From: a virus
Strand: one strand, 5' to 3'
Length of the DNA: 21,244 nucleotides
IMG/VR virus record: IMGVR_UViG_3300034406_000038
Coordinates: 1 to 21,244 of that record
Part shown: positions 10,559 to 17,054 of the stretch, one piece after another
How the letters are laid out: every line of letters begins with the position of its first letter
Numbering within the stretch: position 1 is the first letter of the stretch
Position numbers and translations under genes: made by a program
The notes under the pieces: generated by a model
Told to the model about the DNA's origin: nothing
Database searches by the model: none
What the model saw: only the letters and a program-made list of their open reading frames with translations

Positions 10559-11578
10559 TCAGATCGACAGACCGCGAGCGCGGAGGTTCCCCATGCGACA
10601 TGGGTCCTCCGGTTGAGCGGCGCTCGGGACCGGAATTCGGATCCAGAAAAACTCATGATCGGCGGCGTCGATATCACCGAGAACGAGATCATCGGTGGAA
10701 TACGTTCCGGGGGATCCCGTCACGTCCGGCGCTAGCTCGGTCCATGTGTAGCTATCGCGGACCTCCAAGGTGATCGATGAGGAGGTGGGATCGGAGGTGG
10801 TGTTCGGGAGGATAATCCCCATTCCGGGGAGTTCGTCGGAAATGTATTCCGTAACTCCATCCTCATAGACGGTCTCCCCGTCCATCTGAGCATCCTCAAC
10901 ACATTTCACCGCGTCCACGAGAACATCACATGTGTATTTCCCGGTCGCGCCGTCAAGTTTGAAATCCGCGAACGTGATCACGACGGACCCTTTCGCGGCG
11001 AGCTTGTGTTTCGTGGGATCGGAGTGAGGGAGGATCGCCTCGATAAACTCCTCCGCGCCGGTCCCGTCGAACCACCATCCGGGGAGGGAGTAGATCGTCA
11101 CCGCCTCCGCCGTCTCGGACCCGACGTTCCGACATGCGACGCGACGTTCCGAGGAGGTGAGTCCCGCTTGAATCACCTCAAACTCTAGGATCTCGGTCGG
11201 GAGTTTGGTTCCGTCATCGAGATAGTTTCCGATCGTGACCCGAGCGGTCCATCCGGTGTCCACGCTCGAATCGACCACGATCCCGAGACCGGGGATGATA
11301 TCGAAATTCTCGGTGGAATCATCCGCCGTAACACCCAGACCGGTCCGGTCCCCCCACGGATTCCGGGAGGTCGCTCCGGTCCCCTCGCCGGTAACGTCCA
11401 CGGTGACGCCTCCGGACTTCGTGAACTCCAGGAGATAGGTCCCCGCGACCGCTTGACCATTCCCCCGCCACGCGATCGAGACAATCGGTGTGTTGGTCGT
11501 GTTCTCGAACCGAACGTCCAGGTCCCCCACGGGATCCGTCGCCTCATCCGCATAACGGAGCATGAGTTCGGCGCTCAT
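10559..11578 (-). CDS. Tail-tip beta protein, second of two tandem paralogues
   Basis: The protein has 339 residues, starting MSAELMLRYADEATDPVG after AGAGGGGA and in an ATGA overlap. Blocks shared with the previous gene include NGQAVAGTYLLEF, GGVTVDVT, GLGVTADD, PGLGIVVDSSV, LPGWWFDGTGAEEF, KLAAKGSVVITF, SDPTSSSITLEV, DSYTWTELA and the ending MGNLRARGLSI. The mid-region shows a run of strand-turn-strand elements and no catalytic motif. Four cysteines are present in this copy and one or two in its paralogue. The pair probably arose by tandem duplication and diverged, perhaps to give different subunits of one tip structure. A longer in-frame start at 11650 is unlikely. Confidence 0.65.
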   Translation of the reverse strand: MSAELMLRYADEATDPVGDLDVRFENTTNTPIVSIAWRGNGQAVAGTYLLEFTKSGGVTVDVTGEGTGATSRNPWGDRTGLGVTADDSTENFDIIPGLGIVVDSSVDTGWTARVTIGNYLDDGTKLPTEILEFEVIQAGLTSSERRVACRNVGSETAEAVTIYSLPGWWFDGTGAEEFIEAILPHSDPTKHKLAAKGSVVITFADFKLDGATGKYTCDVLVDAVKCVEDAQMDGETVYEDGVTEYISDELPGMGIILPNTTSDPTSSSITLEVRDSYTWTELAPDVTGSPGTYSTDDLVLGDIDAADHEFFWIRIPVPSAAQPEDPCRMGNLRARGLSI

Positions 11579-12606
11579 ATCGATTCCCCTCTCACCCTCA
11601 GATTCCGGAGGCGGAGATTTCCGAGCGACGCGGAATCCGGCGGACTCCACCGACTCCAGAACGGGACCTCCCCCGATGAGGTGATGATTCCTGTTCCCTC
11701 GCCGCTCTCGGTGAGGGTGATTCCGTCCGTGGTCCAGGTTTCTCCAGGAGCGCCGCCGCCGTCCTGAGCTAGCTCATTCCACTCGAAAGAATCACCGTCC
11801 ACGATGAGCGTATGAGTCTCCGAGGTGGGATCCGAGGACTGATTTTGAAACACGATCGAGAGACCTCGGAGGCGATCGTTCCCGTCCACGTATCCGTTCC
11901 CCGCTCCATACTGATAGCGCGTGGTTCCGTCGAAAATCGCGGAGGCGATCGCGAGACCGCCGTTCACGTAGACATCCGCCGTTTTCGACGGTCCATCCCA
12001 ATTCTGATAGGTGATGGTGTACGTTCCCGAGTTCGCGAGTTTCTCCCTGGAGGGTGAGGTGTGATTGTCGATCTGCAAGATGAACGTCCGCGCTCCGGCG
12101 GGAGTGAAATAGAAACCGGGGAGAGCGATCGCCACACACTCCGCTCCATCCCTGGACCCGATGTTCACCGCCGCTATCTCGATCTCACTCGGGTCCTCCA
12201 CGCCGCTCTCCACGATCCCCGAGTTCAACATTCGAGTAACGGACCCGCCGCCGTCCATGTATGCACCGAGCGAGACCCGAGATTGATTCCCGTCCGCGAC
12301 GGTGGAGGCGACCACGATTCCCACTCCGAGGATGATTCCATAGTTCACGGTGACATCATCGGCGGTCACACTCAGGCCGGTCGCGTGGTTCGGATTTTTC
12401 GATCCGTCCTGAGCGACCACGTCCACCGTCACTCCGCCGTTCACGTTGAACGTGAGGGTGTAGGATCCGCCGATCCCTTGACCGTTGTCCAAGTGAGTCG
12501 CGGAGGCGATCGGCGATCCGGTGAGGTTCTCGAAACGGAACGAGAGGTTCCCAATCGCCGAACCGGACGCGGCGGGATATCGGAGTTCGATGTCAGCGGA
12601 ACTCAT
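11575..12606 (-). CDS. Tail-tip beta protein, first of two tandem paralogues
   Basis: The protein has 343 residues, starting MSSADIELRYPAASG at an ATGA overlap with the previous gene. It is rich in strands and Gly/Asp/Ser turns, as in tail fibre or tail-tip Ig-like proteins. Aligned by eye with the next gene, it shares NGQGIGGSYTLTF, GGVTVDVV, GLSVTADD, LGVGIVV, LPGFYF, SDPTSETHTL, DSFEWNELA and the C-terminal ending LGNLRLRNLRVRGESI. No enzyme motif is visible. It may form part of the tip complex or bind the host surface; that is inference from position and composition. A start 12 codons further upstream is possible but would overlap the neighbour more deeply. Confidence 0.65.
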   Translation of the reverse strand: MSSADIELRYPAASGSAIGNLSFRFENLTGSPIASATHLDNGQGIGGSYTLTFNVNGGVTVDVVAQDGSKNPNHATGLSVTADDVTVNYGIILGVGIVVASTVADGNQSRVSLGAYMDGGGSVTRMLNSGIVESGVEDPSEIEIAAVNIGSRDGAECVAIALPGFYFTPAGARTFILQIDNHTSPSREKLANSGTYTITYQNWDGPSKTADVYVNGGLAIASAIFDGTTRYQYGAGNGYVDGNDRLRGLSIVFQNQSSDPTSETHTLIVDGDSFEWNELAQDGGGAPGETWTTDGITLTESGEGTGIITSSGEVPFWSRWSPPDSASLGNLRLRNLRVRGESI

Positions 12607-13010
12607 GTCAACCTCAGGAGACGCGCCTCGAAACTCCACCACCGGATCCCGGACGGCGCGCCGTTTGTGTAATGCCCGATCACAGGATCGAGCGTGAAAT
12701 CGGAGGTGAACAGGACCTCATATTCCGTCGCGTCTCCGGCGGTCGGTTTGAGTGTTGCGGGACCCGTTCCGTTCAGGAGATCCCGGACGGTGGAGGCGAT
12801 CGCCTCCGTGAGGACCTCGGACCGGATCCGGATCTCCCGTTCGTCCGTGTCCTGGAGATACTCCACGCCGATCGAGGACCCGGTGATCGACCGCGTGTCC
12901 GCTCGCTCGGGTCCCTGATCCTGAAATCGGTTCATGATCCGGACGTTTTTCGCGAACACCGCTTTCACCGCCCCGCGCTCGATTCCAACCTCATCCAGGG
13001 TGAAACTCAA
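12603..13010 (-). CDS. Small tail-tip region protein, function unknown
   Basis: The protein has 135 residues. No ATG is available at the 5' end; the likely start is TTG at 13010, with GGAGGT about five bases upstream and a TTGA overlap with the short leader ORF. The N-terminus is MSFTLDEVGIERGAVKAVFA. A helix REIRIRSEVLTEAIASTVRD and a strand-rich C-terminus (ATEYEVLFTSDFTLD, then GIRWWSFEARLLRLT) follow. There is no signal peptide or membrane segment. Its place straight after the tape measure suggests a distal tail or tail-tip component, like the small genes after lambda H, but I see no family match. The stop overlaps the next start (ATGA). Confidence 0.6.
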   Translation of the reverse strand: MSFTLDEVGIERGAVKAVFAKNVRIMNRFQDQGPERADTRSITGSSIGVEYLQDTDEREIRIRSEVLTEAIASTVRDLLNGTGPATLKPTAGDATEYEVLFTSDFTLDPVIGHYTNGAPSGIRWWSFEARLLRLT

Positions 13011-13123
13011 ATTGACCTCCAGGAGGCGCGTCCTGGACGCCTCTCTCCATCCGTGACGGGGGGGAGGAGGGTAAAACCTCCGGACCCTCCGCGCCGTCTG
13101 AGGGGATTCTGAGCGTTTCTCAT
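13007..13123 (-). CDS. Possible 38-residue coupled leader ORF inside repeat copy B
   Basis: It opens with ATG in an ATGA overlap with the tape measure stop and ends in TGA overlapping the TTG start of the next gene (TTGA). The peptide begins MRNAQNPLRRRGGSGG and ends GRASWRSI; it is basic and resembles nothing I know. Because it fits exactly between two coupled junctions, ribosomes could read through it to reach the next gene. It could equally be a decayed remnant: the homologous frame in copy A is a longer coding sequence, and the one-base loss in this copy breaks that frame. Confidence 0.35.
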   Translation of the reverse strand: MRNAQNPLRRRGGSGGFTLLPPVTDGERRPGRASWRSI

Positions 13124-13125
13124 GG
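13020..13125 (-). repeat. Copy B of a ~107-bp direct repeat (copy A is 598-704)
   Basis: This segment lies between the tape measure gene and the next tail gene. It matches 598-704 over its whole length except for two adjacent substitutions (13073-13074, AA here against GG in copy A, plus strand) and one missing base near the start of the minus-strand reading (AACGCTCAG here, AACGCCTCAG in copy A). Both copies begin at an ATGA overlap with the stop of the preceding gene. A stem GGAGGGT / ACCCTCC with an 11-nt loop (13066-13072 with 13084-13090) is intact in both, and both substitutions fall in the loop. A second imperfect stem lies in the part near 13028-13040. Confidence 0.9.
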
Positions 13126-15360
13126 GTAGGTGTATCCCCCGGTATCCGGAACGAGACCCGCCTCCTCCATCTGTCTCCGGAGTTCCTCCATGTCCAGGAC
13201 CGGAATCACTTTCACTTTCGCCGGAGTCGCCTCGATCGTCATCATCGCTTCCTGAGTTTTCACGAGGAACTCATCCGCCGCCGCTCCGAATCCGCCTTTC
13301 AAACGTCCTGTGGTGTGATCGATCGCGTTTCCCATCCGCTCAACGATGATCACGCCGGTTTTCTCCGCCTCCGCTCCGATTCCCTTCACCGCCTCCGCTG
13401 TTTCTTTCGCGGCGGTGGTGGTGTCCTGAACCGGTTTGAGGAGTTCTTTCGCGGCGGTGATCAACCGGTCCGCCTCCGCTTTGTTTTGTTGAATCGATGA
13501 CCCGAGTCCGGAATAGGCTTTGTCCACGAGACCGAGCGCCGTCTCCGCCGCTTTCCGCGTGGCCGGATCGAGGAACGTGAGAGCGGTGATCACCTCTAGC
13601 CAATCACCGAGTTTCCCGATGATGGACTGAATCGAGGCAATCACGTCAGCCGACATCCTCCGGAACGCCGCCGCCGAGAGCAGACCGAACGCCTTGATGT
13701 ATTTCCCCGCTCCCTCCTGGATGTCCTGAGCGATCTGGACCACCGTCTCCCGGAACCCGGTCCAGTCCCCCGCCATGAGTTGAATCGCACCCTTGACGAT
13801 TCCGAGGATCACATCCATCGCGGTCCCGATGAAGATTTTCGCTCCCTCCCACGCGACTTTGATGAACGCGAGGATCCGAGGTCCCGCGACCTCCCACAGA
13901 CGAACGAGTTTCGCAACCTCGCGACTCACGATTTCGCGGACGTAAGGCCACACCTCCTCAGCCGTGGTCCTCACCTTGCGCCACTGTTCGATCACAAACG
14001 TGGAAACCTCCTCGAACGCCGGACGGAGGAAATCGATCGCGGCGCGGAGCGCCTTTTCGATCAGGTTCCAATTCCCGATGATGAGCGCCGCTCCCGCCGC
14101 GATCCCCGCCGCCCACGCTGCGACGGACCCGGTGATCGCGGTGACCGCCGCGACGATTCCTCCGGCGAGGAGGAGGATCGGTCCGAGCGCCGCCGCGAAC
14201 GCGAGGATCGCGATCACGGATCGCTGAACCTGTTCGGGGAGGTTCGCGAATAGATTCACCATCCCGGTGAGCGCCGTTGCAAACTCGGACACGAGAGGGA
14301 CCACGATCGGGATGAGCGCCTCGCCGAGTTCGATCGCCGCGACGGAGAGCGCCGCCATCATCCGCCCGAACTCCCGTGCCGCTCCCTCGGTGTCATCGAA
14401 CGCCTTTTTCAGGGATTGTCCGAACTCATCCGAGAGCGCCTTGAATATCGCGACCGCGCTTTCACCGTTGTCACGTGTGAGGAGGAGGATCGCGTTGAAC
14501 GCCTCCACGGACTCGAACGCCTTTTTCAGAGCCTCCGTGTTGTCCCCCGCTTTGGTCCGGAGTTCCACGAGAGCCGCGAGGAGTCCGCGCTCCTGGAGGG
14601 TTTTGGTGACCTCACCGACCGAGGACCCGATCTCCGCGAGACCATCGTGAACCGCTTTCGTCGGACCGAGGAGTTTTGCAAATATCTGTCTCAGTCCGGT
14701 CACCGCCTCCGCCGCCGTCGCGCCGGTCCGCGTGATCGTGGCGACCGCCGCCGCGAGGTCCGCGAACGGGACCTCCAGTTCGGACGCGATCCCGAGGACG
14801 CCGGAGAGCGCGGATCCATAGGTGTCCGCCGCCGCTTTCCCCTCCCGCGCCGCCGCCGTGAGGATCCCGACCGCCTTTGCAGCGGAGAGATTTCCCTCTC
14901 CATACGCGGTCACGGCGGAGGTCACCACATCCCCGACCTCCGCGACCGACCCGAGACCGGCGGCGCTCGCTTGCGCGGAGGCGGTGAGGATGTCCATTGC
15001 CGCCGCTCCCCGGAATCCGGCGGAGGTGATTTTCTCCAATCCCTGAGCGAGTTCCACGGGGGACTGTCCAACATCCACCGCGAGCGCCTTGAGATCATCG
15101 CTCCATCCCGCTACCACCTCACGCTGAATCCCCACGAGACCCACGATTCGATTGGTCGCCTCCTCGAAATCCGCCGCCATCTTAACCGCCGCCGTCCCGA
15201 CCGCGAGGATCGGAACGGTGAGCGATTGTGATAGCTGTCTCCCGGTCCGCTCCGCTTGCGCGGAGAACCGGCGGAGACGGCGGTTCGTGTTCTGGAGACC
15301 CTTGACGAACTCTTTTGCATGGAGTCCGAGGAGGACATCGAGTCTCGCGATCGTTGCCAT
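13120..15360 (-). CDS. Tape measure protein
   Basis: This 746-residue protein fixes tail length and is injected with the DNA. It starts at an ATG right after the previous stop, with GGTGG upstream. Residues 60-320 form the conserved tape measure core (PF10145 / TIGR01760): DFEEATNRIVGLVGIQREVV, then VGQSPVELAQGLEKITSAGF and YGSALSGVLGIASELEVPFA. Residues 383-430 are strongly hydrophobic (AILAFAAALGPILLLAGGIV and on), as in tape measures that reach the inner membrane. Long helices with Ala, Glu and Lys follow to the C-terminus. At roughly 1.5 angstrom per residue the tail would be about 110 nm long; this is a rule-of-thumb estimate. The stop overlaps the start of the repeat copy at 13020-13125. 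Confidence 0.95.
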   Translation of the reverse strand: MATIARLDVLLGLHAKEFVKGLQNTNRRLRRFSAQAERTGRQLSQSLTVPILAVGTAAVKMAADFEEATNRIVGLVGIQREVVAGWSDDLKALAVDVGQSPVELAQGLEKITSAGFRGAAAMDILTASAQASAAGLGSVAEVGDVVTSAVTAYGEGNLSAAKAVGILTAAAREGKAAADTYGSALSGVLGIASELEVPFADLAAAVATITRTGATAAEAVTGLRQIFAKLLGPTKAVHDGLAEIGSSVGEVTKTLQERGLLAALVELRTKAGDNTEALKKAFESVEAFNAILLLTRDNGESAVAIFKALSDEFGQSLKKAFDDTEGAAREFGRMMAALSVAAIELGEALIPIVVPLVSEFATALTGMVNLFANLPEQVQRSVIAILAFAAALGPILLLAGGIVAAVTAITGSVAAWAAGIAAGAALIIGNWNLIEKALRAAIDFLRPAFEEVSTFVIEQWRKVRTTAEEVWPYVREIVSREVAKLVRLWEVAGPRILAFIKVAWEGAKIFIGTAMDVILGIVKGAIQLMAGDWTGFRETVVQIAQDIQEGAGKYIKAFGLLSAAAFRRMSADVIASIQSIIGKLGDWLEVITALTFLDPATRKAAETALGLVDKAYSGLGSSIQQNKAEADRLITAAKELLKPVQDTTTAAKETAEAVKGIGAEAEKTGVIIVERMGNAIDHTTGRLKGGFGAAADEFLVKTQEAMMTIEATPAKVKVIPVLDMEELRRQMEEAGLVPDTGGYTYP

Positions 15361-16088
15361 TCACCACCTCTGATCTCGCGGTTTTCGGACCGCTCCCATA
15401 GCCTCCAGAAATTCGCGCTCCTGGAGGTCCTCATCCACTGCCGACTCCGTCTCCGTGGTCACCGGACCCTCCCACGTCGGAACGAAATCCTCGACGTGAA
15501 CCGGGTCCTCATCTTTCCCTCGCCACAAATTGACATTCGAGGCGGCGGCGATCGCCATTCGGAGATCCCGCCGCCGGTCCCCGATCGGGGAGATCGCGTC
15601 AAACGCGATCCACTCCGCGAACTCGTGAGCGGAGATCCGCTCCTGAGCCTCGCGGACTGACATTCCTAGTTCGAGCGCGAGCGTGAACCAGAACCGCCGC
15701 GACGGGGACCGGCGGAGTTTCCCGCGAGTTCCTCGAAATCTGCGGTTGACAGACCGGACAGACGGGACGCGACATCGAACACGCGTCCGAGAGCGGCGGC
15801 GGAGAGAGCGCCGAGCGCCTCCACGTCCTCCATCGTGAACAGACGCTCACCCTCATCGCCGATCATCGAGAGCGCGGCGAGTTTCGTTCGAGCGCCGTTC
15901 ATGAATCCCTCTCGCAGTTCCACGTCTCCCTCCGGAGAGGTCACGACGAGATCCGCCTCATAGGTGTCTCGCTCCGCGCCGGTCATCTCCCGGACGATCA
16001 CGGAGCCTCCCCACTCGGGGACCTCCACCGTCTCCCGTCTGAGTTTCGTTCGATCGAGGATCTGTTCCCTTGTGAGTAGCTTGGACAT
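15361..16088 (-). CDS. Tail assembly chaperone fusion (G-T) made by -1 frameshift
   Basis: Ribosomes that slip back one base at GGGAAAC would make about 242 residues: 124 from the chaperone frame and 118 from the -1 frame, ending at 15361. The -1 frame is open from the slip site. It continues LRRSPSRRFWFTLALELGMS, then VREAQERISAHEFAEWIAFD, AISPIGDRRRDLRMAIAAAS and NVNLW, the typical chaperone C-terminal domain (lambda gpT / DUF4035 type). The conserved phrase FWFTLALELG lies upstream of the only ATG of this frame (15663), so a separate gene starting there would lose part of the domain. That supports frameshifting over independent initiation. The stop is next to the tape measure start (TGAATG). 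Confidence 0.85.
15666..16088 (-). CDS. Tail assembly chaperone, lambda gpG-like (zero-frame product)
   Basis: This 140-residue protein is the short product of a chaperone pair that binds the tape measure during tail assembly. It starts at 16088 with MSKLLTREQILDRTKLRRET, after an AGGGGGA site. VEVPEWGGSVIVREMTGAER follows, an opening I know well from phage tail chaperones. An upstream in-frame ATG (16109) overlaps the previous stop but would add seven unconserved residues. The C-terminus is low in complexity (GPRRGGSGSRSRSN), as expected if most of the conserved sequence has moved into the shifted frame. The slippery heptamer at 15717-15723 lies 17 codons before the stop. Confidence 0.9.
   Translation of the reverse strand: MSKLLTREQILDRTKLRRETVEVPEWGGSVIVREMTGAERDTYEADLVVTSPEGDVELREGFMNGARTKLAALSMIGDEGERLFTMEDVEALGALSAAALGRVFDVASRLSGLSTADFEELAGNSAGPRRGGSGSRSRSN
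15717..15723 (-). promoter_or_regulatory. -1 ribosomal slippery heptamer GGGAAAC
   Basis: Read in the chaperone frame, the codons are GCG GGA AAC, so the heptamer G GGA AAC has the X XXY YYZ form and allows both tRNAs to re-pair one base back. Lambda uses the closely related GGGAAAG at the same place in gene G. A Shine-Dalgarno-like GAGGA lies six bases upstream and could stimulate slipping. A five-pair stem (CCGCC at 15715-15711 with GGCGG at 15698-15694) is possible downstream, but it begins only one base after the heptamer, closer than usual. Confidence 0.85.
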
Positions 16089-16105: not shown

Positions 16106-16627
16106 TCATGGCGCGGGTCGCAGGGATTCCCTGTGACCCTTTGCCGCTCCACGTTTGGCGGACCGTGTGATCCGTTCCCGGAGATCGTCCGCGAAAACCC
16201 GAGTCGCCTCCCGGTGATTTTCATCGAACGCCGGACGGAGGAACGGAGATTCCGCCGTTCCCGGATGGATCCGTTTCCGCCGCTCCTGACCACCGCCACG
16301 CTTGAACCGCGTGGACTTTTTCTGAAAATGTGGAGAGGTTCCGAACTCCACAAGGTGAGCATAAAACGCCTCCGATGAACCCGCCTCCACAAATCCGAGG
16401 ATCGCGCCTTTCACCTTTCGCGACCGGAACCGGATGGACTTTTTCAGAGCGCCCGTCTGGACCGGAACGAGATCGATAGCTCGATCCCTGATAGGTTTCG
16501 CGGCGCGGCGGAGCGCGGACCTCATCGCTTTCTCACGCTTAATCTCATCCTCCATCTCCCGGAGCATCGAGAGCGTTTGAGCATCATCCACGCGGAACCG
16601 CGTGTCTCGAAGGTGTGTGTCCGCCAC
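16106..16627 (-). CDS. HK97 gp10-like tail protein
   Basis: The protein has 173 residues and a GTG start. It contains the three blocks that define the HK97 gp10 / PF04883 family: VPVQTGALKKSI at residues 54-65, AFYAHLVEFGTSPH at 87-100, and ESPFLRPAFDEN at 126-137. A basic stretch (RFKRGGGQERRKRI) interrupts the family core after residue 106. The role of this family is tail assembly or completion near the head-tail junction. The gene lies after the tail tube gene, whereas it usually lies between the joining protein and DUF3168, which is unusual. Its stop overlaps an ATG of the next gene (ATGA). Confidence 0.82.
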   Translation of the reverse strand: MADTHLRDTRFRVDDAQTLSMLREMEDEIKREKAMRSALRRAAKPIRDRAIDLVPVQTGALKKSIRFRSRKVKGAILGFVEAGSSEAFYAHLVEFGTSPHFQKKSTRFKRGGGQERRKRIHPGTAESPFLRPAFDENHREATRVFADDLRERITRSAKRGAAKGHRESLRPAP

Positions 16628-16631
16628 GGAA

Positions 16632-17042
16632 TCAATCCGTATATTGCGGGAGTCCGGAGATCGCCCACGTGACCGCCATCCGCTCCGCGTCCGTTGTTGC
16701 GAGCGTCATCCGGATAGCCACGGTCGCCTCGAAATCGATCTGAGTTCCGGACTTCGTGAGGAGATAGAAATTCGTGTTCTGTGACTCCCCGTGTTTGTCC
16801 CTGAGCGCGAGGTGCATCGGTTCATCCTTCTGATAGAAAAACTCCGAGGTCACCTCACCGTCACCGAGGAGACCCTGAAGATACTCCCTCGCGAGGGAGT
16901 CATGATCCGTCACATCCATGCGTTCCGGTTGCGGTGGTGTGTAGTCGAAATCGGTCGGTCCGGGGATTTTGGTGAACACCTCCGGAGCGCCGCCGTCACC
17001 CATAAAAATTTGCGCGCCGAGCGCGAACGTTTTGGTTCCCAT
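16632..17042 (-). CDS. Major tail tube protein
   Basis: This protein polymerises into the tail tube. Two ATG codons stand side by side; the second (17042) lies six bases after GGAGG and is preferred, giving 136 residues starting MGTKTFALGAQIFMGDGGAP. The tail tube signature is clear: DFDYTPPQPERMDVTDHDS, then LAREYLQGLLGDGEVTSEFF, the 'EPMHLALRD' strand and TQIDFEATVAIRMTLATTDA. This is the beta-sandwich with the 'DVTdHdS...eyl.Gl.dgGe' pattern seen in TP901-1/SPP1-type tube proteins. Its size fits the single-domain tube class without an extra C-terminal Ig domain. Confidence 0.85.
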   Translation of the reverse strand: MGTKTFALGAQIFMGDGGAPEVFTKIPGPTDFDYTPPQPERMDVTDHDSLAREYLQGLLGDGEVTSEFFYQKDEPMHLALRDKHGESQNTNFYLLTKSGTQIDFEATVAIRMTLATTDAERMAVTWAISGLPQYTD

Positions 17043-17054
17043 CATTCACCTCCC

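Follow-up and report, generated by a model that had tools for sequence, protein, structure and literature searches.

The slip heptamer of phage lambda, whose tail assembly chaperone proteins gpG and gpGT are among the closest described counterparts of the locus analysed here, is GGGAAAG. In the review PMC5009743, gpG and gpGT occur in a ratio of 30:1, G-T frameshifting is described as widely conserved, and GGGAAAC is given as the g-t shift site of the archaeal virus HCTV-1. For two genes belonging to a cluster of phage tail chaperones, a frameshifting rate of 6-7% has been measured (PMC3711429). AAAAAAC and GGGAAAC slip with low efficiency in E. coli, although IS elements very probably make use of them (PMC4066793).

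The window, the whole stretch of 21,244 nucleotides of viral DNA that was analysed, most probably encodes a programmed -1 ribosomal frameshift of the lambda G/GT type, in an uncultured long-tailed phage (probability about 0.96, judged from sequence). This reading is preferred because of the domains, the gene order, the frame relation, the retention of the heptamer against synonymous change and the lack of a usable T start in most relatives. Like the lambda pair, the locus lies before the tape measure gene, has a two-domain layout and shifts to the -1 frame at an X_XXY_YYZ heptamer; unlike lambda, the heptamer is GGGAAAC rather than GGGAAAG, and the similarity is found at the profile level only. 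Further counterparts are found in Streptomyces phages. The G parts of phiSASD1 and Dubu are 44-45% identical to that of the window and carry GGGAAAC at the same residues, although their zero-frame stop directly follows the heptamer whereas that of the window is 16 codons away. Yara, PHTowN and Dryad also have GGGAAAC with T in the -1 frame, followed in their case by TCC and a stop 12 codons on, and their records list two separate proteins. A joined CDS is annotated in 4 of 22 fetched phage records (KS9, Bcep176, phiSASD1 and Dubu), and most of these records fit the expectation of the initial annotation that a gene caller would report two genes and miss the fusion. The kind of site is thus already known; the site itself is ordinary and its slip sequence strongly conserved.

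Overlapping frames and the slip site

G, T, the heptamer and the neighbouring genes are all found on the minus strand. The zero-frame ORF (15666..16088), a G-like tail assembly chaperone, comprises 141 codons including the stop when read from the ATG at 16088 and 148 from an alternative upstream ATG at 16109; the MSKLL position is the start in most aligned relatives. The heptamer G_GGA_AAC (15717..15723) is read as GCG GGA AAC, which is the X_XXY_YYZ register. Beyond it the zero frame continues for 16 sense codons of low complexity (SAGPRRGGSGSRSRSN) and ends with TAG (15666..15668) as the 17th codon, formed by the CTA-G of Leu-Gly codons of the -1 frame. The -1 frame opens right after a stop located 126 bases upstream of the heptamer and runs to the TGA at 15363-15361. 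Past the slip site (15361..15717) it gives 118 residues, beginning LRRSPSRRFWFTLALELGMSVREAQ, which form the T-like C-terminal domain of the frameshift product. The predicted G-T fusion has 242 residues when counted from 16088 and 249 from 16109. These data bear out the initial annotation as to the register of the heptamer, its place 17 codons before the stop, the open -1 frame and a predicted product of about 242 residues across the slip site.

The minus strand of the window contains GGGAAAC eight times, the plus strand not once. Three of the eight (at 15723, 13333 and 3162) are in slippery register within a called ORF, but the open -1 frame that follows measures 120 codons at 15723 vs 20 and 46 at the other two, so that only 15723 combines register with a long open -1 frame near a zero-frame stop. 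The heptamers at 13333-13327 and 3162-3156, inside ORFs, are probably chance occurrences. The slip site is set beyond chance by its conservation in relatives and not by the bare heptamer match.

Profile searches place both parts in known families. Hits for the G ORF are phrog_344 (tail assembly chaperone, E 7e-27) and, under the Pfam gathering score, PF06222 Phage_TAC_1 (E 4e-4). The initial annotation had proposed a search with the 118 residues of the -1 frame and expected a chaperone C-terminal domain; they match PF06223 Phage_tail_T (E 2.7e-18, gathering score passed, residues 29-106) and phrog_337 (E 3e-25). One profile, phrog_14766, covers both parts: the match to the G ORF at 14-114 is weak (E 0.03), that to the T frame at 124-207 stronger (E 5e-14). 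A family having G and T in one chain thus seems to exist already in that library. Solved structures compared with G gave no convincing match, and profile A1 offered no segment of sufficient conservation to scan a collection with.

The next gene downstream (13120..15360, minus) encodes the tape measure protein (PF10145, E 5e-22; phrog_991, E 2e-60), and a lambda-like major tail tube protein is encoded upstream (16632..17045, minus; PF16460, E 3e-8). In transcript order the genes are capsid, head-tail connector, tail completion, tube, HK97-gp10-like, G, T and tape measure; the two overlapping ORFs thus sit just upstream of the tape measure gene, as a lambda-type G/GT pair requires. The HK97-gp10-like gene stands between the tube gene and G (window 16106-17045), and several of the fetched phages have the tube gene immediately before G. 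Elsewhere in the tail region, the neighbouring ORFs 10559-11650 and 11575-12642 look like paralogues by eye, as their LRY and FEN stretches close to the start are alike. The closest capsid protein matches are in Caulobacter phages (38-39% identity) and the closest chaperone matches in Streptomyces and Rhodococcus phages; a search of the tail region at the DNA level against phages returned no match.

Retention of the heptamer among relatives

The frame relation and the junction were compared in sets of relatives. For the first comparison, 22 named phage stretches were fetched. T is in the -1 frame relative to the annotated G in 22/22, and a strict XXXYYYZ in register is present within the overlap in 15 (six of them GGGAAAC) and missing from 7. 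The first set comprises 104 loci, made up of the named phages, IMG/VR loci, L002 and the window; eight have no G profile hit and one no T, and all 95 loci having both domains place T in the -1 frame. After removal of near-duplicates 84 loci remain, window included; a strict heptamer marks the junction in 76 of them and is absent from it in 8. The commonest are AAAAAAC (31) and GGGAAAC (28, the window and 27 others), with others rarer. At upstream positions of the same genes, in-frame XXXYYYZ occurs in only 16 of 9,485 cases. A held-out set was drawn from 237 new loci found in two viral scans and one genome scan; exclusion of 111 as redundant with earlier loci or each other, 4 as too short and 2 without T left 120. 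T is in the -1 frame in 119 of these, and a strict heptamer lies close to the junction in 105. Keeping of the heptamer across related phages, the comparison proposed at the outset, is thus seen in both sets.

Among the 15 held-out loci without a strict heptamer, L340 has A_AAA_AAC in register just beyond the distance limit used. Many of the loci lacking the heptamer, including most of the 8 in the first set, have NNT TTC at the same place. In one subgroup (L015, L018-L020, L077, L082, L272, L318 and others), NNT-TTC or XXXTTTZ replaces the AAA-type heptamer near the same place. The sole exception to the frame relation in the held-out set is L236, in which T is in the +1 frame relative to G around 1525-1548; a fault in the assembly or a genuine +1 shift could explain this.

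A further search did not require the heptamer. Towards the end of G, all 204 loci were searched for the residues [ED][ED][LAMVI]x[GK]N, and 106 sites were found. The heptamer is unbroken at 105 of them; at the remaining one, in L072, the sequence is CGGAAAT, with an AAATTTT heptamer one codon on. Loss of the heptamer through synonymous codons in relatives keeping both frames, named in the initial annotation as the outcome that would speak against a frameshift, is therefore not the pattern at these sites. GGGAAAC and AAAAAAC interchange among relatives and the third base of the preceding codon follows, G before Gly and A before Lys. Of 800 Gly codons elsewhere in the same G genes, only 72 are GGA. 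The third base of the preceding codon equals X in 61/61 cases vs 20.2 expected from the same genes, a count that is illustrative only, the sites having been selected on the heptamer.

Proposed mechanism and alternative origins of the T part

Frames, domains, heptamer and conservation are observed; the slipping itself and its role in tail assembly are inferred. For most ribosomes, reading of the chaperone ORF would end at the TAG with release of a short G-like product. In a minority, a backward slip of one base while GGA occupies the P site and AAC the A site would shift the codons to GGG and AAA; these ribosomes would read 118 more codons and complete a G-T fusion of about 242 residues. The slip rate would, by analogy, be a few per cent, and the upstream AGGA may help slipping. 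As in lambda (PMC5009743), the G part would coat the tape measure protein, while the tail tube protein would be recruited by the T part that only the few copies of the fusion carry. Against a frameshift stand the low efficiency of GGGAAAC in E. coli (PMC4066793), the lack of a stem beyond chance in the window, the loci without a heptamer and the +1 relation in L236. A low slip rate is, however, what this gene requires.

The best surviving alternative, though very unlikely, is that T is a separate protein made by termination-reinitiation and that the heptamer is incidental. Only two bases separate the zero-frame TAG from the first ATG that follows in the T frame (TAG GA ATG, TAGGAATG at 15668-15661), and the Phage_tail_T match starts past that ATG, an arrangement that would suit reinitiation. 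However, the conserved FxFxLALxLG stretch of the -1 frame lies upstream of this ATG. It is among the best conserved columns, with A14 and G18 invariant in 21 sequences, and no GTG or TTG is seen by eye between the heptamer and the first -1-frame ATG. The earlier statement that FWFTLALELG precedes the only ATG of the frame holds for its position upstream of the first ATG; 'only' was wrong, the frame having three Met codons. The same situation prevails in most relatives. At 153 AAA-type sites, the FxFxLA motif is present within 30 residues in 141 and absent there in 12. An ATG occurs at or before the motif end in 6 of the 141 loci and a GTG or TTG in 20, so that 135/141 have no -1-frame ATG, and at least 115/141 no ATG, GTG or TTG, at or before the motif. 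In those at least 115 loci, which have no usual start codon, the conserved start of T is therefore readable only via the G frame. Reinitiation also leaves unexplained the retention of the heptamer at 105/106 [GK]N sites.

A fusion produced by transcriptional slippage instead of ribosomal slipping is highly improbable: the runs of six A in some relatives (AAAAAAC, 31/84) can make RNA polymerase slip, but the window and 27 others of the 84 have GGGAAAC at the same place, with no long homopolymer, and the codon register is kept. The idea that the two frames result from an error of sequencing or assembly in what is one continuous gene, conceivable for an IMG/VR-type record from assembly since such records can contain indels, has a similarly negligible probability and is, on the sequences compared, already contradicted by the same -1 relation in all 22 named phage records and in 119/120 held-out loci, 37 of which have a stop immediately after the heptamer.

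Candidate upstream and downstream signals

The proposed ribosomal frameshift may be assisted from upstream. An SD-like GAGGAA (15729..15734, minus) is a possible stimulator; its AGGA (15733-15730) ends six bases before the heptamer. AGGA occurs at exactly this place in 46/62 first-set loci and in 55/88 held-out AAA-type loci (29/45 and 26/43). Where two Glu codons stand side by side, GAG encodes the first in 67/77 cases at the AGGA place vs 45/88 elsewhere in the same genes; with one locus per cluster, the bias is 22/29 vs 19/43 (p = 0.009). AGGA upstream of the heptamer is thus favoured in codon choice. An AGGA 6-17 nt before the second base of the motif is listed as experimentally stimulatory in PMC4066793, and by the measure given there the gap in the window is 7, inside the stimulatory range. 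The initial annotation was correct on the position of a GAGGA six bases upstream, and its suggestion that this could stimulate slipping gains some support from the GAG bias and the spacing.

Downstream of the heptamer, the window shows no comparable signal. Predicted folding of the 77 nt that follow is no more stable than that of dinucleotide shuffles (z 0.33), nor does that of the first 14 codons surpass synonymous shuffles (z -0.36); a stem-loop of the dnaX/IS3 type of stimulated signal shows no excess over shuffles in the window, and Rfam gives no match. The relatives divide by the distance of the zero-frame stop. For a stop 0-1 codons after the heptamer (24 first-set loci), the next 14 codons have z -1.49 vs synonymous reshuffles, and for a stop 0-2 codons after it (45 held-out loci), z -1.91; where the stop is at least 6 codons on, the values are -0.06 (38 first-set loci) and +0.15 (43 held-out loci). 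The difference between stop-adjacent and distant-stop loci in the held-out set has p = 7e-8. It persists when the 153 loci are collapsed to 67 clusters, 7 of them mixed (36 vs 38 cluster means, z -1.30 vs -0.05, p = 8e-5). Against a stem stand some excess in control codons 25-39 of the held-out stop-adjacent loci (z -0.75) and the synonymous shuffles themselves, whose model leaves the overlapping zero frame outside. The best stem has i+j = 51 in 20/69 loci, and stems begin most often six bases past the heptamer (20/69); a search for a common stem register or covariation in the stop-adjacent loci found neither. One fixed-register hairpin (7-12/19-24 after the heptamer, encoding RR-P-E-RR) seems conserved by eye, but its third-base pairs 8-23 and 11-20 are without covariation and it was rejected as a structure shared by the relatives.

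On this folding evidence, stop-adjacent slip sites have a predicted downstream stem-loop that synonymous shuffling does not explain, whereas distant-stop sites, window included, do not. With about even odds, a single chaperone family has two solutions to low-rate slipping: a stem would be selected where the stop is adjacent, and the heptamer with the upstream AGGA would be enough where the stop is at least 6 codons on, as in the window. A literature search of partial coverage found no description of this two-layout pattern, which is not claimed here as unpublished. Recognition of the slip site lets the two ORFs of the window be annotated correctly as G and G-T. A set of slip sites with two layouts, an adjacent stop with a stem-loop and a distant stop without one, could show what sets the low frameshift rate.
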